Shown one piece after another: positions 39,408-54,935 of a stretch of DNA of 64,000 nucleotides. This stretch comes from Burkholderiales bacterium. GTDB lineage: Bacteria > Pseudomonadota > Gammaproteobacteria > Burkholderiales > Casimicrobiaceae. Every line of letters begins with the position of its first letter. The first letter of the stretch is position 1. The stretch covers positions 1-64,000 of the forward strand of contig JANXNI010000095.1 in the NCBI GenBank assembly GCA_025354165.1, read 5' to 3'. The position numbers and the translations under genes are program-made. The notes below the pieces were generated by a model. That model was not told where the DNA came from. It saw only the letters and a list, made by a program, of their open reading frames with translations, and did no database searches.

Positions 39408-40270
39408 TCATAAGTTAGGAATTTTGGCTTTTGGCTTGCCTTGCTGCATGGGCTTAAGCCCATGCAGCAGGGCAAATTCACGTGGCGTGCGCCAGTCTAG
39501 CGCAGAGTGGGGACGGGTCTCGTTATAGTGTCTGCGCCACGCCGCGATTTTGCTCTTTGCGTCGTCTAGACTCATGAACCAATGTTCGTTCAAACACTCC
39601 TGGCGCAGCCGTCCATTGAAGCTCTCGACCATCGCGTTGTCGGTTGGCGTACCCGGACGACTGAAGTCGATTTCAACCTTGTGTTCATAGGCCCAGCGAT
39701 CCATCGCCTTGCTGATGAACTCGCTGCCATTGTCGGTCTTGATCGTTTGTGGCGCACCGCGATCCCGGGCAATCCGGTCAACCACTTTGACCACATCCTC
39801 GCCTTTCAGACTCTGTCCAACGTGAATGGCCAAACTCGCGTGAAGCAGTCCGCCACAGTGAGCATGCGCAGCTTCCGGCCATCAAACAGGTTATCCGCCA
39901 CAAAGTCCATACTCCACATTTGATTGGCATGTTGCGCGGTGGTCTTCGGTTGCCGCAGCTTGGCCGCCTTGTTGCGCTTCGGCCGCTTGTGGCGCAACGA
40001 TAGACCTTGCTCGCGGTAGAGCCGATACACGCGCTTATGATTGTCTTTGAAACCCTCGCGCCTGAGCATCACGTGCACGCGGCGGTAGCCATAGTGCACC
40101 CGCGTCTGCGTGATCTCTTTCATTCGCATGATGAGCGCGCGCTCGTCTTTGACCACGGATCGGTAGAGGTACACCGTCCGACTCAACTTCAGTGCCGCGC
40201 ACGCCCTGCGTACGCTTGCACCGAAACTTCGGGTTAAGCCCTCGGCGAGTTCGCGCTTGCGCGAGGGCAT
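39408..40270 (-). pseudogene. IS3-family transposase OrfB, frameshifted
   Basis: MPSRKRELAEGLTRSFGASVRRACAAL...NQMWSMDFVADNLFDGRKLRMLTVADCFTRV (ORF 39806-40270), then another frame continues AIHVGQSLKGEDVVKVVDRIARDRGAPQTIKTDNGSEF...DNAMVESFNGRLRQECLNEHWF (39408-39833): frame break at about 39830-39838. Confidence 0.88.
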
Positions 40271-42953: not shown

Positions 42954-43573
42954 CTAAATGTGTACACCCTATTTGTCACTTCTGACAGTTGGTTTGTTAC
43001 GGAATCGAATTTGGTTGCCGACGTGTTGAGCGACAGCAATTGCATACGAGATTGCATGGCCTCAAAGTTTCTACTCCAACTACGTGTTGAGGTCATACGA
43101 AGCCCAACAGACGACGCATATGTCGAGTCCACGCTCCTTGTAGGCCTCCCAACAAACCGAAGCTGTTCGCGTAACGCCTGACGAGAGTACCGGAGCGATC
43201 GCGCTCATTGTGCAAACATTTCCCTGCACGCGTTTGCCTAAAGTGCGGGCTCGCCAACAACATCGATCGGTTGAGTTCGAAAGTTTGTGCTATCGCCCGC
43301 GCTTAGATCGGGAGATAGCATCAGTTCGGCAGAAGTCGCCTGCCTTCGATGCTATTTTCGATGTGCTAAATCATCTAAAGTGTCGCTGGAATGCCCTTTT
43401 CGACGATGCCAGCTCAGTGTCAAGTCACATCGCTGGTCACGGCATGCGCTACATATGTGCTGAGTCTTGATAAATATTCAGCGCTCGATTTGCCGACCGA
43501 AATGAAGCAGAGCACACGAGGCACGCGTCGCACAGTAGATATGCTCGAAGATATTTGTAGATTTGAGAACGAA

Positions 43574-44206
43574 ATGTCAATCCCCGTAACCGAGCGACTT
43601 CGCGATTCCACTCGTGCGATGCATACCGAGGTCGAGCGAGCGGGCGTGATGCGGTTGTTGCTGCACGGGCAACTGGGGCAGGTAGGCTACTGTCGGTTGC
43701 TGCGCAATTTACACGCGATTTATGTCGCGCTAGAGGCGGGTCTGTCGCAAAACGCGAGCAAGACGGTGTTGGCTGCGTTGCGCTGTGAGCCGTTGTTTCG
43801 CAGCGATGCATTAGGTGACGATCTGAATTTTCTGCACGGTGCAGACTGGGCGGAAGCGATACCGCTGACGGTAGCGGCGATGCAGTACGCAGACCATCTA
43901 AACGCCCTTGCAACGCGGAAGCCGTTAATGCTGGGCGCGCACGCCTACGTTCGCTATTTGGGCGATCTGAGCGGCGGACAAATGCTTGCACGTATAGTTG
44001 CCAAAAGTCTTGCCCTGGAGGCTGATCAAGGCGTGAATTTTTACGATTTTGGCGGGGCCGAAAACGTGGCGAAACACGCGCGGGCATTTCGCGCCGGGCT
44101 GGACATATTGGCCGATGACGAAACGAACGCGCAGGCTTTAGTCGAAGAAGCGGGTGATGCTTTTTCGCGGCACCGAATGCTGTTCGAAGAACTCGTCTAC
44201 ATCTGA
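43574..44206 (+). CDS. bphO: heme oxygenase (biliverdin-producing), BphO/HmuO type
   Basis: MSIPVTERLRDSTRAMHTEVERAGVMRLLLHGQLGQVGYCRLLRNLHAIYVALE..., AHAYVRYLGDLSGGQMLARIVAKSL; ORF extends upstream to 43391 but homologous region starts at 43574. Confidence 0.93.
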   Translation: MSIPVTERLRDSTRAMHTEVERAGVMRLLLHGQLGQVGYCRLLRNLHAIYVALEAGLSQNASKTVLAALRCEPLFRSDALGDDLNFLHGADWAEAIPLTVAAMQYADHLNALATRKPLMLGAHAYVRYLGDLSGGQMLARIVAKSLALEADQGVNFYDFGGAENVAKHARAFRAGLDILADDETNAQALVEEAGDAFSRHRMLFEELVYI

Positions 44207-44214
44207 CACCCGGA

Positions 44215-46410
44215 CTACTCGGCCGCGATTCCCGTGAACGTCCGAATCTGCTCATAAAGCGATGCGGCGCGATGCGTCGAAGTCTCAAGCTCTTCCAAGA
44301 ACGTCGCCGCCAGCGCACCAATGGGGCCGTCGGCGATGTCCATTGCAGCGAGGCTCGCATTGGTCAGGATTGCGGCCATCACTTCATCCGCGCCTCGGCC
44401 CGTGCCGTCGACGGCTTGCGTCAAACCATGACCCTGCGCCGCCCGCTGCATTGATTCTTCGAGGTGCCGTCGCGCCGCCGCAGCACGCTTGCTATCGCGC
44501 AGATCAAATAGCGTGACTATGAAGCCGAGCAACGTGCCATCGCGTCCCGGAACCGTCTCGGCACGCACCGCCACCGGCAACCCGGGATCACCTTCGCGCA
44601 ACAACGCCATTTCGCCGCGCCACGGTGGCTGTCCCGCCTTGAGCGTGTTCATGGCCCGCCGCATTGAAACCGGTTCGGTGAAGAGCAGCGCGATTTCTTG
44701 CAAGCTGCCAACCTCGATATCGATGCGCCCAGTGAGCGCAGCAAAGGCCTGATTACAAAACAACAGCCGCCCACCCGCATCGGCAATTACGACAGGCTCA
44801 CCCGAACGCTGCACGGCTGCCCGAATGCCCGCGAGCTGATGCTCGGCTATCAATAGCCGCACCGAATGCACCTGCACGATGATGTCCACCAGCGCGAGGC
44901 CAATGGCGCGACCGAGTGCAATCTCGGCGCTCGTCCACGGCAGCGCTGTGCCGCGCACAATCTCTGACCATGCAGCAAATGAGCGGCGCGGCGAGAGTTC
45001 CATCGGGTCGTCGTTCACCATCGGCTTCGACGGATCGCCCGCCCAGGTGACCGACAGCAATTGTTCTTTGCGGAACCACATCAAATAGTCAGAGCCTTCG
45101 CGCGACAGCCGGACCGCCATCACGCCGCTGGCAGTCGGTGTAAGCGAGGCAAGCGCAGGGTTAGCTTTGGCGACGGACGAGCAACTGAACAGCGAATCAA
45201 ACGACTGCGCTTCGATCCACGCCTGCAACTCACGCAGCTCAGGCGTTGAGGGCACTTCGCCCGAGGTGAGGATTTCGCCTTCGGTGAACAGCGCCGCACC
45301 CGTTGCCTCCAGCGGTTGCAACAACGTGCGCGGATTGCGGAACAGCGCGAGCCGCCAATCACCCTCAGTCGACGTCGCTTCGATCAGCCGTTGCTCCACG
45401 CGGCGCACCATCACAGCGACCTGAGCATGCGCATAATTTTCAATCGCAGCGATGCGCGTTGACACCACTTCGGCCAGCAAATCGCAGGCCGCACGAACGG
45501 CAAAGCGCACGTTGCGTGCCGAATAGTGATGTGCCGCAATTAGGCCCCACAACTTGCCTTCGCGCACCAGTGACACCACCAAAGTCGCGGTGACGCCCAT
45601 ATTTTTCAGGTACTGCAAATGCAGCGGCGACATGCTGCGCAGGTACGACATCGACATATCCAGCGGACCGCTGTTATCTGCAAAAAATTCCGGCTGCAAC
45701 AGCGACGGTACGTAATGCACGTCGACCAGCACTCGCACGCGATTGCGCAGGTACAACTCGCGCGCGCGCTGGGGAATATCGGTCGCCGGATAGTGATGGC
45801 CGAGTAGCGATTCAAGTCGCGGATCGCGCGCCTCGGCAACGATTTTTCCGTGACCATCGGCATCAAATTTGTAAACCATCACACGGTCATAGCCGATGAG
45901 ATCGCGAAAGCTTTGTGCTGCCGTGTCGGCAAGCACGCCCATGCTGGCTGCGTTGCTCAGCCGCTGCACCGCATCGGCCACCAGTTGCAGCAAACGCGCC
46001 TGATCATGGTCAACGATGGCACCAGTGTTCGCGACGACGGGTTCCAATTCGACGATCAATCGGCCCGGTTCGATCTGATGGAGCGCGCCTTCCCACTGCA
46101 GGTTCGTGCCGCAAAGCTCCGGGTAGCAGCGGATTGGCAGCGGTTCAGCGCCCATGCTCTGGTTGGACCAGCTAAGGATCCGAGCGGCGAGGTTGCTGGG
46201 GAGCAGGTTCACGGGCGTGCCTACGAGCGCCGCGCTCGATGAATCGAGACCGAGCAGTGCTGATGCGTTCGCCGACGCCTGCAGAACTTTGCCATCAGCC
46301 TGGTCGAGCACCAGCAAAAAACCGTGCGGCTGAATCGAGCCTGCTAGATTAATCAGCTCGCGTTCGCAATTGCTGAGATCGGCTTGGCCGAAGGGCGGGC
46401 TGTAAGTCAC
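44215..46410 (-). CDS. bphP: bacteriophytochrome, PAS-GAF-PHY with C-terminal PAS and helical output, no histidine kinase domain
   Basis: DLSNCERELINLAGSIQPHGFLLVLDQ (chromophore Cys at residue 15), YDRVMVYKFDADGHGKIVAEARDPRLESLLGHHYPATDIPQRARELYLRNRVRVLVDV, SMSPLHLQYLKNMGVTATLVVSLVREGKLWGLIAAHHYS, tongue PRRSFAAWSE; C-terminus lacks H/N/G boxes. Confidence 0.95.
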   Translation of the reverse strand: MTYSPPFGQADLSNCERELINLAGSIQPHGFLLVLDQADGKVLQASANASALLGLDSSSAALVGTPVNLLPSNLAARILSWSNQSMGAEPLPIRCYPELCGTNLQWEGALHQIEPGRLIVELEPVVANTGAIVDHDQARLLQLVADAVQRLSNAASMGVLADTAAQSFRDLIGYDRVMVYKFDADGHGKIVAEARDPRLESLLGHHYPATDIPQRARELYLRNRVRVLVDVHYVPSLLQPEFFADNSGPLDMSMSYLRSMSPLHLQYLKNMGVTATLVVSLVREGKLWGLIAAHHYSARNVRFAVRAACDLLAEVVSTRIAAIENYAHAQVAVMVRRVEQRLIEATSTEGDWRLALFRNPRTLLQPLEATGAALFTEGEILTSGEVPSTPELRELQAWIEAQSFDSLFSCSSVAKANPALASLTPTASGVMAVRLSREGSDYLMWFRKEQLLSVTWAGDPSKPMVNDDPMELSPRRSFAAWSEIVRGTALPWTSAEIALGRAIGLALVDIIVQVHSVRLLIAEHQLAGIRAAVQRSGEPVVIADAGGRLLFCNQAFAALTGRIDIEVGSLQEIALLFTEPVSMRRAMNTLKAGQPPWRGEMALLREGDPGLPVAVRAETVPGRDGTLLGFIVTLFDLRDSKRAAAARRHLEESMQRAAQGHGLTQAVDGTGRGADEVMAAILTNASLAAMDIADGPIGALAATFLEELETSTHRAASLYEQIRTFTGIAAE

Positions 46411-46420
46411 CGGTAGCGGG

Positions 46421-47920
46421 CTAATTCAGTAAAGAGGGTGGTGTGCTGCGGACGTGGCCCAGCATGCCCACCCCAAGATAATGGATACGTTGCCACAGCG
46501 CAACGCCGTCGATACCCAGAATTTCAGCGGCGAGTTGATGTTCGCCGTGTGATTGCGAGAGGGCGAGTTCAATGATGTGGCGCTCGGCAGCGTCGTTAAT
46601 CGCAGCGACGAGATCGGGGAGCGAAGTCTGCCCAATCTGCGCAACCAGATCGGAAACGGCGGACGCGAGTTTACTAGCTGGCTCCGAATCAGGGTGACCG
46701 CTCAGATCGCGTATTGCCCGCTGGTCGATGCGCCGCAGCGTTAGCCCGATGCATTCCTGATCACCTTCCGCTAAAAGCGCCGCCGACACCTCTACATCAA
46801 ATCGCGATGCATTTGTCAATCCAATCGTGGCGGGCCGTTGCTCGGACAGGCCGTTCGACTTCGCTTCGGTGAGGATCGATATGAGCGTGTGCTGCGGGTC
46901 ACCCAATAGCTCGATCAAGCTGCGCCCCACGACCTTGTGCGTCTCGCTTCCGAGGGGAAGCTGGCAGAGCGCAACGAACGCCGGGTTCGCCATCAGCACG
47001 CGTCCGCTGGAGTCGGCAATCGTCACCGCGTCGGGAGTCTGCTCCACAAAATCCGACAATCGCGTCGCCGACGACGGCTCCGACGACACCTTAGTCGCGC
47101 GTGCCCGAACCAGCAGCAACATCTTGTCGCCGGCGCGAAACGGCGTGGCCGAGATGTCAATTACGGTGGCATACAAGGGGTTATCTAAACCACCCTGCGC
47201 AAGTGCATGAACGCGGATTTCGCCGGGTCGCCCGCTGCTGCGCGCCATTACCAGAAGCTCCTCTACGCCGAGACGTTCTGCGCGCAGAATACCTACGGTC
47301 GCGCCTTGCCCGACTAGTGTCACCTGATTGCCGCCAAACAAATCGTTCGCAGCGCGATTGGCTTCAACAATGGCAAGCGTTTCTGCATCGACCACCATCA
47401 CGGCGTCGGTGGCGACCTGAAATAGTTGCTTGTAACGCGATTCAGTTTGGCGCAGCTTCCAATAGTCCTGCTCCAACTCCCGCTGCGCAACAAGAAATTG
47501 CTGCTTGATCGCAGCAACGGTACCCAGATCGCGCCCTACGGCCAGCACCGGGCCATTCGGCCCCAGTTTGATCGCAGAATACGATACCGGAACGTTCTGG
47601 CCATCGGGAGCTGAATGAAAGACTTCGCGGCGACGCGTGACACCAGCGGACTCGGCCTCCGCAAGAAGTTCTCCGATTTTGTCGCGTGTACCGCCGCTCA
47701 CAGTTTCGGCCCACGGACGACCAACCCATTGTGCGGTTGAACCGGGAATAGGATCGGCACCCACCGCCATGTGCCGGATCACACCGTCTGCATCGATGAC
47801 CAGCGCGATGTCGCTTGCAATTGAGACAAAGGTCTGTGCCAATTGCGGCGCAAAGTCTGCCAGACCAGGCAACGTCACGATATCGGTTGGATTGGCAGGC
47901 CGATTAGCGCTATCGCTCAT
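46421..47920 (-). CDS. ppsR: PpsR/CrtJ-family transcriptional repressor of photosynthesis genes (multi-PAS, Fis-type HTH)
   Basis: FAPQLAQTFVSIASDIALVIDADGVIRHMAVG, LGRDLGTVAAIKQQFLVAQRELEQDYWKLRQTESRYKQLFQVATDAVMVVDAETLAIVEANRAA; C-terminal HTH IIELALSQSHGEHQLAAEILGIDGVALWQRIHYLGV. ATG 47920. Confidence 0.9.
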   Translation of the reverse strand: MSDSANRPANPTDIVTLPGLADFAPQLAQTFVSIASDIALVIDADGVIRHMAVGADPIPGSTAQWVGRPWAETVSGGTRDKIGELLAEAESAGVTRRREVFHSAPDGQNVPVSYSAIKLGPNGPVLAVGRDLGTVAAIKQQFLVAQRELEQDYWKLRQTESRYKQLFQVATDAVMVVDAETLAIVEANRAANDLFGGNQVTLVGQGATVGILRAERLGVEELLVMARSSGRPGEIRVHALAQGGLDNPLYATVIDISATPFRAGDKMLLLVRARATKVSSEPSSATRLSDFVEQTPDAVTIADSSGRVLMANPAFVALCQLPLGSETHKVVGRSLIELLGDPQHTLISILTEAKSNGLSEQRPATIGLTNASRFDVEVSAALLAEGDQECIGLTLRRIDQRAIRDLSGHPDSEPASKLASAVSDLVAQIGQTSLPDLVAAINDAAERHIIELALSQSHGEHQLAAEILGIDGVALWQRIHYLGVGMLGHVRSTPPSLLN

Positions 47921-48678
47921 ACAAAACCCCGGCAAATCCGGAAAGCGCGCGTTAATTGCACCATGACTTTTACGCACCGATGTGCAAATTGCATTGTTAA
48001 ACTCACACTGGATTTTAACTCAGTGCATTGCGCTTTGTGCATCGAATGCTAGGAGTTGGCGAGCTGGGCCACGCGTGGCATGTGGCGTTCGCGCAAAATG
48101 TTCTGCCTTCTATTGACGAAGTAAATTCAATGATGCCCCGATTTCACAGCTCGAAAGGAGGTCGGAAGGAGCTGGCTAAAACGGAGCCGATGACTTAATA
48201 GATTCACCGAATCGAGGGGTCTGATGGACAAACAGAACAAAACTAGCTTTCACCACGTCTATCAGGTCGCGACGGCCGGACCAGTGCACTCACAATGCTA
48301 TTGATCACTTCTCTGCGTATTTGCTGTTCGTATCGCCGTGGTATCTCAATTTTGACGGATCCCTCGGAGACATCACTCGCCCGCTACGCGGGGAGCAGGT
48401 CACCGCATGCCATCGTCCTTACCCTCGCAGACGCAACTAGTATTTTTTCCCAAACAGATGAGCTGAGGATGGGCGCGAACGTAAATGTGGTGTTTGCGGT
48501 TGCGGAATTTTCGATTCTCGGAACAGACATGAACGCAATGTATCCGCGTAATATTTGAACTGGGATATCGCGTCGCCCTTAAGTAAAAAAATTGGACAGT
48601 GGAGAGTGTAATCGGCCCCCGGTTGAGGAGCGTAGCGAACGCACGATCCTTGGCACATCCGCGTCACCGTATCGTTTG

Positions 48679-49101
48679 CTACCCAGTTTTCTTCACATAA
48701 GCGCTGCACCAGCCACTAGAGCTTACCTGCTTGCCGGGAAACAGCGGGCATGGGCCTGAGGCGCTTCCTGCCGTGCCCTGAAACAGATTGCAGACGCCGC
48801 ACTTCGTGCCGTCGACGTGTTGCGCGTACTTGGTCTTGTCCACTTTAGTTGCATCGGGCGAATAGCCGAGCGACATGGCGGTGGGATCGTCGGCGGCAAC
48901 CATCGGCAACGGGCCGGCAGCGGGTGCAGGGGCTGCCGACGCGGGCGCTGCGGGCGCGGGCATCGGTGCAGGCGCGGGAGTCGGCGTTGGCGTTGGCACG
49001 GCCTCAACGGCGGCTTTCGGCTTTTCCGAGCATGCGGCGAGCAAACCGACGCCAACAAACGGGATGATTTTTATGAAGCTACGACGGGTTTCGATGGCCA
49101 T
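48679..49101 (-). CDS. high-potential iron-sulfur protein (HiPIP), predicted Tat lipoprotein
   Basis: MAIETRRSFIKIIPFVGVGLLAACSEKPK (twin Arg + LAAC lipobox), Pro/Ala linker, KCGVCNLFQGTAGSASGPCPLFPGKQVSSSGWCSAYVKKTG (four cluster Cys). Confidence 0.93.
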   Translation of the reverse strand: MAIETRRSFIKIIPFVGVGLLAACSEKPKAAVEAVPTPTPTPAPAPMPAPAAPASAAPAPAAGPLPMVAADDPTAMSLGYSPDATKVDKTKYAQHVDGTKCGVCNLFQGTAGSASGPCPLFPGKQVSSSGWCSAYVKKTG

Positions 49102-49212
49102 GTTGGATGCACTCCAGTGTTGATTAAATGGATTAGCGTGATGATTTTTGAAATATTAGTCGGTGGCAATGGTATTGACCATGCGCATGCCAAAGCGGTC
49201 CGCATCAAAGGC

Positions 49213-50001
49213 TCAAGATTCGACATTCGAAGTAGCCGCTTCTATGCGGTTTCCCAGCGCCGGTGACCACAAAGCCTCAACCGAGCGTGGCGCGATCAGA
49301 AACAGATGCTCCAGCACCGCGAGCGTGAGCAGCGTTGCCACCAAGACCATGCCAGTCGTTGCGAACGGTGACAGACTGGCTCGACCCACTGCCACCCAGA
49401 TGGTCGCAGCACAGGCGGCAGCCATTGCCACGCTGACCGTAAAAAATTTGCCAATCGAATTGCTTTGACGGAAGTACGTGCCCAGATAAGCCATGTGCGG
49501 TGGAAGGAAGTGCGAATAGGTATTGCGGACGCCGAAGAAAAGATTTAACTTCGCCGACAGCCGCATGATCCAGAGCACCAAATAGGTATAACCTCCAATA
49601 TGATTCACCGCCCCCCATGTGAAAACCAGCAGCAAGACTCCACCGCCGAGCAACGCTAGCTCGTGATAAATCACCGCGCGAGTAGCGAGCGTAAATCGTT
49701 GTAGCTCGGAGGCGTCGGGTGGGCAGCTCAGCCGTGACGGCCCCGCTATGCCGCCCATCAGGAAAAGCATCTCCTGCCAGCCCCAAATCAAGAGCGTGTA
49801 GCCGAATGCCGCGTACGCGCTGCCGACACTTGCGCTGCGGCTCGCCACCATGAGACCAATCAAGCTGCACGTAGCAATGAGCGTGGCTACTCCGAGGCTC
49901 CAGAAGTAGGTGCGTTTGGGCAGCCCGTCGAGATAAAAGATCAAGCCGGTTAGGAACCACCAAAGGAGGGCGGCGACGGCGACGGCTGCGAGTATTTCCA
50001 T
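49213..50001 (-). CDS. puhE: photosynthetic complex assembly protein PuhE (DUF3623)
   Basis: MEILAAVAVAALLWWFLTGLIFYLDGLPKRTYFWSLGVATL...YLVLWIMRLSAKLNLFFGVRNTYSHFLPPHMAYLGTYFR. Confidence 0.93.
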   Translation of the reverse strand: MEILAAVAVAALLWWFLTGLIFYLDGLPKRTYFWSLGVATLIATCSLIGLMVASRSASVGSAYAAFGYTLLIWGWQEMLFLMGGIAGPSRLSCPPDASELQRFTLATRAVIYHELALLGGGVLLLVFTWGAVNHIGGYTYLVLWIMRLSAKLNLFFGVRNTYSHFLPPHMAYLGTYFRQSNSIGKFFTVSVAMAAACAATIWVAVGRASLSPFATTGMVLVATLLTLAVLEHLFLIAPRSVEALWSPALGNRIEAATSNVES

Positions 50002-50024: not shown

Positions 50025-51098
50025 CTACCAGGTCGGCTGAAGACGCATGTCGCTCGGCAGTGCGTGTGAGTGCGTTGGCAGCAGATAGAGGCGTGCGAAA
50101 GCGGCTGCGGCGCATACACCCAGGCCCAAGCGTTTGATGCCACCGATGAAACCGCCTTGCGTTTTTGCGGCGTCGATAGCCAGCGCCAGAACTCGCATGC
50201 GCTCAAGACCAGCCCGGAAGCGCGGGTCGTCGAGATTAAGCGTCACCGGAAACACTTGTTTGGTGATTTCGTTAGTGATGCGGAACACGGTGAAATCGTA
50301 ATCGGCTGGCGTGAGATTGAGCGCTTTGTGAAATTCGATACGCGCGTGGTCACGCACATACATCGTTGCGTAAACGGCGAGCAGGAAGAAGCGAATCCAG
50401 TAAACATTCGCGCCGCGCAGCAAGGCTGGATCAGAGCGCATCAATAGCGTAAACGCTTCGCCATGGCGAAATTCGTCGTTGCACCAGAGATCAAACCATT
50501 TGAAGATCGGATGAAAACAAAGTTCGGGATGGCGCTCGATTTGACGAAAGATCGTGATGTAGCGGGCGTAGCCGATCTTCTCGGATAGATACGTCGCGTA
50601 AAAGATGAATTTCGGCCGGAAGAAGGTGTATTTTTTCGCCTTGGTGAGGAAGCCTAAGTCCACGCCAATACCGAAGTCCTTCAGCCACTGATTGATGAAC
50701 CCGGCATGGCGCGATTCGTCGCGGCTCATGTAACCGAAGAGCTTTCGCATTTCCGGATTTTTTACGCGACGCTTGATTTCTGCGTAAAGCACGCAGCCTG
50801 AGAATTCAGCAGTCACCGAGCTGATCATGAAATCGACGAATTCGCGATACAAGCCTTCGGGCAGTTCGGAGAAGTCACGATCCATATCGGCGGGGCGTAC
50901 GAAGTGGCCGCGATTGAGATCGAGGCGGAATTCTTCCATCAAAGCGTCCCACTCGTTGCGCACGAGCGAGATGTCGATATGATCCATCGCGTCAAAGTCT
51001 GTCGTGTAGAAGCGCGGTGACAACAACGTGTTGGTCTGCGCGCGTTCGGTAGCCTCGTGTGAATTGGCTGGCGCAGCTTCAATTTCAAGGGCGCTCAT
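50025..51098 (-). CDS. acsF: Mg-protoporphyrin IX monomethyl ester (oxidative) cyclase AcsF
   Basis: [81 protein letters not shown]. Confidence 0.97.
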
Positions 51099-51469
51099 GG
51101 TTTACGGCTCCGGGAAAAATTATGTGATTGGCACAGACGGTCTGGCGAAAAGCTCACCTCATACAGCGCTGTTAGTTCAAAGCGTGAACACATGCGAGTC
51201 CAGATCCGAGCGAACCACGAGGCCCTAGAAACCGTGGCGCTACGCTGATAAACCGTGTGCTCGCCGAACGCAACAATGAACGGGGCGTCGTGAACCAGCA
51301 CTTCGTCACCGGGGCCAACCTCAACGCCATCAAGCTCAACGTGCGCGTGCAGCGTCTCGGCGGTGTTGCTGAGTTCTACGGTGCAGGGAACTGTGACGGA
51401 GCTGCCCATCCAGGACGCGCTTTCAGAAGCGGTACTCGTGGGTAATGCGATTTGGAAAGATGCGTTCAT
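51095..51469 (-). CDS. conserved-position small protein between puhC and acsF, function unknown
   Basis: 124-aa ORF overlapping its neighbours by 4 bp on both sides; [72 protein letters not shown]. Confidence 0.85.
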
Positions 51470-51963
51470 GGTGTTGCCTTGCTGGTTTTGGTTGCAGCTT
51501 CCGGTTTGCTCAACAACTTTGCGAACACCTCCGCGTTCGTCGAGCCAAATGAGGCTAGGTCAATTTCGTGATCGGTCACGCTGTCGCGCAGTACGAGGCG
51601 AGCATCGGCCAAGGCGATGATCGAAAATGGTTTGTCGGCGCCAATGCTGGAACGTTTGCGCTCACGCACCAAGCTGCGCACCGCACCGCGCATGAAGCCG
51701 TTGGTTTCTGGCGCGACGCGTTCGATGACTTCGTTAGTAGCGGCGTCGCGCACTTCGATGCCGCCATCAAGTTGATCTTCAAAACGAATGTCTCTCGTGG
51801 CTACCACCGCGACCTTCGATTGAGCGATGGTGGTCGGCAGATCGACGCCACGTTCCGGCTTCAAAAATACATAGGCCATCGTGCCCAAGAGCACTGCCGC
51901 GATTGCGATCATCGGCCCTGCCATTGAGGACGTACGCGGCGTCGGAGCGGTAGTTGTTTGCAT
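51466..51963 (-). CDS. puhC: photosynthetic complex assembly protein PuhC
   Basis: Single TM then KVAVVATRDIRFEDQLDGGIEVRDAATNEVIERVAPETNGFMRGAVRSLVRERKRSSIGADKPFSIIALADARLVLRDSVTDHEIDLASFG. Confidence 0.93.
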   Translation of the reverse strand: MQTTTAPTPRTSSMAGPMIAIAAVLLGTMAYVFLKPERGVDLPTTIAQSKVAVVATRDIRFEDQLDGGIEVRDAATNEVIERVAPETNGFMRGAVRSLVRERKRSSIGADKPFSIIALADARLVLRDSVTDHEIDLASFGSTNAEVFAKLLSKPEAATKTSKATP

Positions 51964-51996
51964 CAGAGAACTCGTCTTTGAAAACTTGATGTGTCG

Positions 51997-52677
51997 CTAG
52001 GCGGCGTTAACCAGACCGCCAGACGGTATCGCAGGCGCGTGGCTGGGGGTGAGGTCACTGCTTTCGCGCTCGCTCGCCTGAATTGCCGGTTGTGCAGCCA
52101 GCGTGGCTCTGGTCAAGAGTGCTGCAACGCGCTCAACATTGGCAATTGAACGCAACATCGGCTGCGTATGCCGCATCTGCCATGGACGTGCATGCGGCCA
52201 GAGGTGCAGATAAGCGATATTGAATTCGCTTTGCAATGAAAGCGGAATATCGCCGGTTCCATCGCTATTAATTTTCAGTCCGGCAGCCGTGAGTGTCTTC
52301 AAAGGCAGATTAAACGTAACACTAAGCACGATACCGATACGCATCACGATCCGTCGATCCGTCAACGTGTACACGGCCGCACGCGAAGCGAGATAGGCAA
52401 GCAGCCACACCAGACCGATCCCTAAGACCGCCAGTGCGAGCAGCGGCGCAACGGACCTTAGCGCTTCGCCATATGTCTCACCGTCGGCTACTGCGAACAC
52501 GGCGCGGAGCACCAACAATAAAGCGAAGTAGCCTGCGAACGCGCGAATGTGAAACGCGTTGCGGGCGAAAGACGATACGTCTGGTGAGCCTTGCCAAATG
52601 ATGTTTTCTCCGGCAGGCAGCGCAGCGGGTAAGCCGTGTACTGCTTCCAACTCATGCTCCGGTGCGACGTACATCAT
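51997..52677 (-). CDS. puhB: photosynthetic complex assembly protein PuhB
   Basis: HGLPAALPAGENIIWQGSPDVSSFARNAFHIRAFAGYFALLLVLRAV...TDRRIVMRIGIVLSVTFNLPLKTLTAAGLKINSDGTGDIPL. Confidence 0.94.
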   Translation of the reverse strand: MMYVAPEHELEAVHGLPAALPAGENIIWQGSPDVSSFARNAFHIRAFAGYFALLLVLRAVFAVADGETYGEALRSVAPLLALAVLGIGLVWLLAYLASRAAVYTLTDRRIVMRIGIVLSVTFNLPLKTLTAAGLKINSDGTGDIPLSLQSEFNIAYLHLWPHARPWQMRHTQPMLRSIANVERVAALLTRATLAAQPAIQASERESSDLTPSHAPAIPSGGLVNAA

Positions 52678-53441
52678 GCCAAGGGTTCCTGACGTGAGGG
52701 ATGTGCGTAGAGGTTTCCACCGCCGTAGTAGGCCATGACTTTTTCCTCTTCAAGCAGCGTGATCGAATCAGCATTCCGGGTGCGCGGCACATTCGCGAAA
52801 TGCTGACCGTAAATCGAATTCACGGTGACACGACCATTGCGAATTCGTGCAGCCGTCATCGGCAACAAAACGCGTGCTGGCCCGTCGGCGGCTTTCACTT
52901 CTAGTTCGATGTAGCGCAGTATGTATTCAGCGCGATCGACCCACACGTCTTTCACTGTGCCGCCTACTTCGCCATCGGCCCCAAACACCGGCATACCGCG
53001 CGGATCAGGGTCGGCGGTTTCCAGATGGTAATCAGTCGCCACACTCAAAGGAACGAGCTTCGGGTGACCATCAAACGTCATATCGGGTACGTCTGCACGC
53101 ATCGCGTACGAACCGGGACCCACCGCCGCAAGCATTGCATCGCCGTGCGGATCCATTGGCGTCCCCAGCGAGCGTCCTACGGCGGAGGCGTTGAGCGGGG
53201 GCTCAATACTGTTGATGGGAGGCGAACTGCGAGTAGTGCCATCGCGCAGGTGGAAAATTTTTGCCTTTGGAACTGCGGGCCAGCCTTGCACAATCTTGCG
53301 GCTAGGCCCGTCGTGCTCGAGGGGGTAACCCTCGCGCTTGTTTTCCCGATGCAGGTAATAGATCAAGCATGCGAAGAATACCCAGAACAGGTAGAGCATT
53401 ACCTGTGCAATATCAATATATGAACCAAGCGCGCCTTTCAT
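52674..53441 (-). CDS. puhA: photosynthetic reaction centre H subunit
   Basis: MKGALGSYIDIAQVMLYLFWVFFACLIYYLHRENKREGYPLE, MPVFGADGEVGGTVKDVWVDRAEYILRYIELEV; ATG 53441. Confidence 0.97.
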   Translation of the reverse strand: MKGALGSYIDIAQVMLYLFWVFFACLIYYLHRENKREGYPLEHDGPSRKIVQGWPAVPKAKIFHLRDGTTRSSPPINSIEPPLNASAVGRSLGTPMDPHGDAMLAAVGPGSYAMRADVPDMTFDGHPKLVPLSVATDYHLETADPDPRGMPVFGADGEVGGTVKDVWVDRAEYILRYIELEVKAADGPARVLLPMTAARIRNGRVTVNSIYGQHFANVPRTRNADSITLLEEEKVMAYYGGGNLYAHPSRQEPLA

Positions 53442-53490
53442 AGCGTGTACCTCCTTGTGGTGTAAGTGATCGAGTGCGTCATGCGATGGA

Positions 53491-54935
53491 CTATTTTGGA
53501 AATTCGGCCAGCTCAAACGAGATACTTGCCAGATTGTCGGACCTGACTCGCCGTACCAGCGGCCCCAGCACGACCAGGGTCAGGAAGATCAGACCAATTT
53601 CAATGTGATAGACGACGCTGTAGCTTGTCGCTGGAGCACTCATGGCGTCGCCAAGCATGCCAGCCTGCGCGAGGTAAGCTACCGCGTCGCGGAGTACACC
53701 ACCTGCCGCGATGGCGAGTCCTGTCCCCGTTGCTTGAACCGCGCCCCAAGCACCAAGCGTCAGGCCGGCCTCGGCTTTGTTATCCATGCTCATCGCAGCA
53801 GTCAAAGTACCGATAGCGAAAAAGCCTCCGCCTAATCCGACGAGCATTGCGCCAAGGCGAAACAGGATCGAAGAATGCAGTGGATCAGAAAAAATAATGG
53901 ATGAAAAAGCGAACAAGCCAATCATCAAACCGAGCGCGCAAAGGCGGAAAGGATCGATCCCGGTGCGAAGCAGTTTCGCGGACCACATGAAGCTCGCCAG
54001 TGCGCCCGCTGCGGTGAACGCGGTCAATAACGTAGTTGCGCTCACAGATAGACCCAGTATCTCGGCGCCGTAGGGCTCCAGAATGATGTCCTGCATGCTG
54101 AATGCGGCGCTGCCCAAAAATACTGCCAGCAAAAAGCGACGTGTTTTTCCATGCCCCGAGAACGCGGCCCACGACGATTTGAAGCTAGCACGAAGTGCCT
54201 TGGCGGCTCTTTGCTCGGCGGCACGCTCTGGTTGCCGCGCTTCTTGTTTCCACAGCGCCGTGGCGTTCAACAGGAAGGTCAAAAGCCCTGCGCCCTGCAC
54301 CACTTGGATCAGGCGCAAAGGCGTGAATCCTTGCAGCAAATAGCCGAATGCCAGGCTGCCCAGAAGCGTGCCGACCAGCAACATCACATACATTAAAGAG
54401 ACCACGCGAGGGCGTGTGTCTACGGTAGCTAAATCGGTGGCCAATGCAAGGCCAGCTGTCTGAGTCACTTGCATGCCGACGCCCACCAACAGGAACGCAA
54501 GCGCGCCGCCAACTTGCCCGATCCACATCGGGGATTGGTGATCGCCCGACAGCAGTAAAAGTGCAAATGGCATGATGGCAAAACCAGAAAACTGAACCAT
54601 CGTTCCAAGCCACAAGAACGGGACGCGCCGCCAGCCAAACGCCGAGCGATGAGTGTCAGAGCGGAATCCCACCAGAGCACGGAACGGTGAGAACAATAGT
54701 GGCAATGCGATCATGGCGGCCACCAACGCAGCCGACACTTTCAATTCAACAATCATCACGCGGTTGAGGGTGCCGACCAAAAGCCCAGTCGCCATGCCGA
54801 CGGTGACCTGAAATAACGATAAACGCAGCAGGCGCGCCAGCGGCAAGTCTTTCGTCGCCGCATCGGCGAATGGCAGAAATTGCGGACCAATTTTGCGCCA
54901 TTGCCGGAGCATCTTTGCCTGCGTCTGAGCGAGAT

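Follow-up and report, generated by a model that had tools for sequence, protein, structure and literature searches.

A HiPIP with a predicted lipid anchor and a Pro/Ala-rich linker, encoded at the end of the puh operon in a Burkholderiales bacterium

By current descriptions, HiPIPs diffuse freely as electron carriers, and models of electron donation to reaction centers build on that behavior. Does the hip gene of a Burkholderiales bacterium (Casimicrobiaceae) encode instead a HiPIP tied to the membrane, and if so, which redox partners would it serve? The gene lies in a stretch of 64,000 nucleotides of this genome (hereafter, the window) among genes of the photosynthetic apparatus. We analyzed its product, its surroundings, its relatives in other genomes and the partners available to it.

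Results

The hip gene and its product

The hip product (Table 1) matches the PF01355 (HIPIP) profile over residues 71-136 (80.3 bits, cut-off 22, E 1.3e-22), and C101, C104, C118 and C132 are invariant across the aligned orthologs. Its closest solved chain is 1hlq (E 3.6e-20), the HiPIP of Rhodoferax fermentans. The N-terminal part, MAIETRRSFIKIIPFVGVGLLAACSEKPKAAVEAVPTPTPTPAPAPMPAPAAPASAAPAPAAGPLPMV, leads from the Tat motif through a short hydrophobic stretch to LAAC24, the linker and the HiPIP domain. It has the features of a Tat substrate (TRRSFIKIIPFVGVGLLAAC), and alignment A1 shows no variation at RR or F; in the signal region as a whole, only R6, R7, F9, P14 and C24 are invariant among the first seven orthologs. 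The preliminary description of this DNA, which had recognized a four-Cys HiPIP with a twin-arginine stretch and a lipobox-like LAAC, is thus borne out (TRRSFIK, LAAC24). It had also proposed a Pro/Ala linker of about 35 residues; the composition stands, with 13 Pro and 14 Ala making up 27 of the residues, but the measured length is 40. The AlphaFold model, weak as a whole (mean pLDDT 56), has pLDDT <50 at residues 17-45 and 47-62.

The ribosome-binding stretch directly 5' of the hip ATG, CTGGAGTGC, is identical in two congeners. In all three regions, signal, linker and domain, dN/dS relative to the closest congener falls well under 1; in the comparison with genome G016, dN is 0.03 and dS 0.47 in the signal, and dN is 0.08 and dS 1.4 in the domain. 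The identical ribosome-binding stretch, together with dN values far below dS, identifies hip as a real gene. Membership in the cytochrome cy family was considered and rejected: the product has no CXXCH and carries a HiPIP domain, and a lipobox closes its hydrophobic N-terminal stretch.

Table 1. Coordinates of the features discussed (window positions unless a contig or locus is given)
Feature	Location	Strand	Remarks
hip, Tat-exported lipobox-bearing HiPIP (predicted)	48679..49101	-	ATG start, 140 aa
Twin-arginine pair R6-R7 (TRRSFIK)	49081..49086	-	Invariant in alignment A1
Lipobox L21-A22-A23-C24	49030..49041	-	Predicted lipidated Cys24, codon 49030-49032
Pro/Ala-rich linker, residues 25-64	48910..49029	-	40 aa, predicted disordered
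HiPIP domain, residues 65-140	48682..48909	-	Profile match and four cluster Cys
Cluster ligands C101, C104, C118, C132	48799-48801, 48790-48792, 48748-48750, 48706-48708	-	
Ribosome-binding stretch CTGGAG	49112..49117	-	Conserved with start codon in two congeners
puhE (TIGR03055 / DUF3623)	49213..50001	-	Immediately upstream of hip
acsF (oxidative cyclase)	50025..51098	-	
Unnamed puh-operon ORF	51095-51469	-	Between puhC and acsF
puhC, puhB, puhA	51466..53516	-	
Stretch between hip and PpsR-like gene	48000-48670		About 650 bp
Heme oxygenase, bacteriophytochrome, PpsR-like regulator	43391-47977		Beside puh operon
IS3-type transposase remains	39408-40270	-	Two ORFs
pufC	L132:6715-8109 (G000 contig C17:90715-92109)	+	Outside window
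Second HiPIP of the window's genome (G000)	C64:6653-6894 and C97:1-75		Soluble, split over two contigs
Cluster-linked HiPIP of G111	L200:7390-7707		No lipobox or linker, ~20 kb from puhE
Photolyase or photolyase-related genes near lipo-HiPIP	L137:11004-12368, L016:210-2935, L139:18968-19885		

The surroundings of hip

The gene is the last of a same-strand run, lhaA-puhA-puhB-puhC-orf-acsF-puhE-hip, whose members took their names from NCBIfam or Pfam matches wherever a model was available. It follows puhE on the same strand at a spacing of 111 bp, in agreement with its earlier placement at the end of the puh operon next to puhE. The ORF between puhC and acsF, which has no Pfam, NCBIfam or PHROGs match, shows 49-57% identity to ORFs that occupy the corresponding position in four other phototrophs (L088, L090, L091 and L098) and is an unnamed gene of the puh operon.

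Beside the operon are encoded a heme oxygenase (PF01126), a bacteriophytochrome without a recognizable kinase domain and a PpsR-like regulator that scores slightly below the NCBIfam cut-off, possibly forming a light-control unit. IS3-type transposase remains (HTH_21 and integrase core) mark the edge of the photosynthesis cluster. The roughly 650 bp that separate hip from the PpsR-like gene hold no convincing gene, and the part directly downstream of hip is not conserved in congeners; the intergenic stretch at hip was found conserved in congeners only at the ribosome-binding site. A search for PpsR sites (TGTN12ACA) gave none near hip and no excess across the window, and scans for promoters and terminators around hip gave nothing convincing.

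A long linker and a lipobox cysteine occur together among HiPIPs

A lipobox pattern alone is weak evidence for lipidation, because it also matches the hydrophobic stretch of six ordinary HiPIPs that lack a linker and carry an AxA site. We gathered HiPIPs from genus, family, order, class, phylum and named genomes, 132 distinct Tat-HiPIPs altogether, and scored each independently for the number of residues separating RR from its first cluster Cys and for the amino acid occupying the cleavage position. A long spacer, defined as a distance of at least 75 residues, was present in 14 of them, the other 118 being short. The distance is 86-121 in the 13 long HiPIPs with Cys at RR+18 and 106 in the remaining one (L202), where the lipobox Cys lies three residues off this position; all other HiPIPs in the first set of 104 have distances of 46-68. 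The lipobox Cys was found in 14/14 long HiPIPs (13 exactly at RR+18) versus 0/118 short ones (Fisher 4e-17, the rows not being independent).

Such joint gain or loss of Cys and linker is what a tethering function of the linker would predict. Since the long linker always comes with a lipobox Cys and short HiPIPs have neither, lipidation is very likely, and so is the anchoring of the Tat-exported hip product by a lipid on its Pro/Ala tether. The comparison thereby lends strong support to what had been proposed for the protein from its own sequence. Homologs with a nonconserved Cys had been named as evidence against that proposal; in the set examined, all 14 linker-bearing homologs keep the Cys, and hip with its long-linker orthologs (14/14) displays the traits of a bacterial lipoprotein, namely a lipobox with Cys at the cleavage site, kept in orthologs. 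We refer to these 14 proteins as lipo-HiPIPs. The residue at +2 is Ser in 12 of them, including the window's hip, and Gly in two. In a tree of the HiPIP domain, which offers only 73 columns, a single lipo-HiPIP clade was neither rejected (p-AU 0.39) nor established.

Distribution and link to phototrophy

The lipo-HiPIPs come from at least 14 species and at least three families of one order; beyond the order, none was found among the 369 class genomes and 379 phylum genomes drawn. Of the 14 genomes concerned, 12 also have puhE. Among the 64 genomes of the window's family, three have puhE, and the lipo-HiPIP occurs in precisely the same three (3/3 versus 0/61, p 2.4e-5). In family f49, to which genome G320 belongs, lipo-HiPIPs occur in 8 of 146 genomes, 7/22 with puhE versus 1/124 without (p 5e-6), and in an even draw of the order they were found in 4/48 puhE genomes versus 0/351 others (p 1.9e-4). 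Most phototrophs of the order have no lipo-HiPIP. It is the sole HiPIP found in the phototrophs G320 and G174, and the nonphototrophic relatives of the window's genome have soluble HiPIPs only.

In all three puhE-bearing congeners hip directly follows puhE as the last gene of the puh run, within a photosynthesis gene cluster. This adjacency is limited to the window's genus; in other families the lipo-HiPIP is unlinked to the photosynthesis cluster, and no shared neighborhood of the unlinked genes was found, no neighbor being common to most loci. At three of the unlinked loci that were read, DNA photolyase or photolyase-related genes lie about 1-10 kb away, possibly a light-stress region and possibly chance. 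Two genomes have a lipo-HiPIP and no puhE match. One of them, G819, is only 73% complete; the other, G1277, is complete in one contig and is a genuine exception to any strictly photosynthetic role.

The window's genome also encodes an ordinary soluble Tat-HiPIP, split over two contigs; the contig ends share about 10 codons (GGCPLFAGKQ), so the two probably adjoin. With a soluble HiPIP also encoded, electron donation need not depend on the tethered form alone. In family f49, many phototrophs (e.g., G111, G1222, G1236, G1213 and G1279) have a linker-less HiPIP about 20 kb from puhE, as in Roseateles.

PufC and its OmpA-like domain

The window's genome encodes PufC, so the usual HiPIP acceptor is available. 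This PufC is a predicted lipoprotein (ILTGC, with Glu at +2) and has an extra C-terminal OmpA-like domain (PF00691, E 2.6e-13). The same fusion is present in G016 (L256), G824 (L198), G320 (L269) and G1294 (L240). Among the six lipo-HiPIP genomes whose PufC was read, four have it; the domain is absent from the seven other PufC proteins read (L092, L073, L178, L075, L245, L086 and L274), and PufC matches in seven plasmid records end before it. A literature search joining pufC, OmpA and reaction center cytochrome found no paper. The domain content suggests that in these bacteria the reaction center may be tied to peptidoglycan.

Discussion

Proposed role of the lipo-HiPIP

The gene, its motifs, their conservation, its co-occurrence with puhE and its operon position are observed; from lipidation onward, we infer the following course. 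The HiPIP would fold around its 4Fe-4S cluster in the cytoplasm and then be exported by Tat, a route that fits a protein needing to fold around its cluster there. Cys24 would gain a diacylglyceryl group and signal peptidase II would cut at this residue, so that the electron carrier would remain attached to the membrane by a flexible leash some 40 residues long. Judging from motifs and their conservation, we hold this part of the explanation with high confidence.

As to what the carrier does, we consider it rather probable that it remains at the periplasmic surface of the cytoplasmic membrane, acting there as a short-range shuttle from cytochrome bc1 to the tetraheme PufC subunit of the reaction center, a HiPIP counterpart of cytochrome cy working beside the soluble HiPIP of the same genome; here we infer both the membrane and the partners. 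HiPIPs are known donors to PufC-type reaction centers (PMC7889895, PMC10991045), the passages of PMC10037100 and PMC10991045 that cite the Rubrivivax work name HiPIP as the main donor there, and the hip gene of the Roseateles photosynthesis cluster is co-regulated with puf and puh (PMC10037100). The distance from the HiPIP cluster to the special pair exceeds 70 A (PMC7889895). By a rough polymer estimate, a disordered linker of 40 residues has an rms span of about 40 A and a maximum length of 140 A when stretched out, which would be long enough to reach the outer heme. In Rhodobacter capsulatus cytochrome cy, however, fast transfer to the reaction center required a linker of 69 residues, whereas about 45 sufficed for the oxidase (PMC7876108), and the former figure counts against a reaction center role of the lipo-HiPIP linker.

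The earlier reading of the sequence is supported in part. Its suggestion that hip encodes a dedicated reaction center donor is plausible given the co-occurrence with puhE in two families (3/3 and 7/8) and the PufC of the same genome; the puhE adjacency confined to one genus, the lack of puhE in G1277, the absence of lipo-HiPIPs from most phototrophs of the order and the Ser at +2 count against the donor role, and the second, soluble HiPIP also weighs against a dedicated one.

Respiration is the main competing role. The tethered HiPIP would then chiefly carry electrons from bc1 to a cbb3-type terminal oxidase, its link to photosynthesis being secondary. The occurrence without puhE in G1277 speaks for it, as do the HiPIP-oxidizing oxidase activity reported in Rhodoferax fermentans and proposed for Congregibacter (PMC2654016) and the shorter linker sufficient for oxidase transfer by cytochrome cy. 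We nevertheless regard it as unlikely, given the strong enrichment of lipo-HiPIPs in puhE genomes, the puh-operon position in three congeners and the exclusively soluble HiPIPs of nonphototrophic relatives.

Somewhat more doubtful still is sorting to the outer membrane, where the protein might, for example, take electrons from an outer-membrane donor rather than serve the reaction center. In Escherichia coli only Asp at +2 retains a lipoprotein in the inner membrane (PMC4623201), and all 14 orthologs have Ser or Gly at this position. This rule may not carry over, since Betaproteobacteria have LolF and not LolC/LolE (PMC7240156); moreover, in the same genome PufC, which must sit in the inner membrane, carries Glu at +2, and no outer-membrane electron conduit was noticed near hip. 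An ordinary soluble HiPIP, cleaved by signal peptidase I and with an incidental Cys, has a parallel in the six AxA-bearing lipobox matches, but is very improbable with Cys at the cleavage position in all 14 long-linker proteins and the linker never occurring without it.

Returning to the membrane-bound donor, we put forward tentatively, as somewhat less than an even prospect, the wider reading that phototrophic Burkholderiales possess an undescribed subfamily of lipid-tethered HiPIPs, in which a reaction center donor confined to the membrane surface would act as a two-dimensional shuttle, functionally converging on cytochrome cy, some of its members serving a PufC tied to peptidoglycan through the OmpA-like domain. 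The tether would probably hold the carrier near the photosynthetic complexes it feeds, and would mean that the cytochrome cy solution has arisen independently a second time. Related phototrophs with tethered and untethered HiPIPs would provide a natural set for testing the effect of tethering on cyclic electron flow.

Comparison with known systems

HiPIPs, Tat lipoproteins and cluster-encoded HiPIPs are already known. Our literature search, with subscription papers mostly outside its reach, found no lipidated or membrane-tethered HiPIP; a membrane-attached HiPIP has reportedly been observed in Rhodothermus marinus. Relative to the literature found, the combination of a predicted lipid anchor with a Pro/Ala linker on a HiPIP is new, and it is conserved across at least 14 species belonging to several families.

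The soluble photosynthetic HiPIPs of Rubrivivax gelatinosus, Rhodoferax fermentans (1hlq) and Thermochromatium tepidum share with hip the domain, the four cluster Cys, Tat export and use as a donor to PufC-type reaction centers (for hip, the proposed use), but they are released into the periplasm, whereas in hip a lipobox stands where they have the AxA site, and about 40 aa of Pro/Ala linker are inserted. In Roseateles depolymerans and relatives (PMC10037100; G111, L200), hip likewise lies within the photosynthesis gene cluster, although in G111 at a distance from puhE and not, as in the window, as the last gene of the puh operon. The lipid-anchored PufC cytochrome subunits (PMC9640540) offer another case of a lipidated Cys anchoring a periplasmic photosynthetic redox protein; PufC, however, is a fixed subunit of the reaction center, whereas the lipo-HiPIP would be a mobile carrier. 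Similar in design is cytochrome cy of R. capsulatus (PMC7876108), likewise a carrier domain on a long, flexible, membrane-tied linker, which serves both reaction center and oxidase. It combines heme c with a transmembrane helix, and the lipo-HiPIP a 4Fe-4S cluster with a predicted lipid; the two share no homology, and their likeness is one of analogy only.
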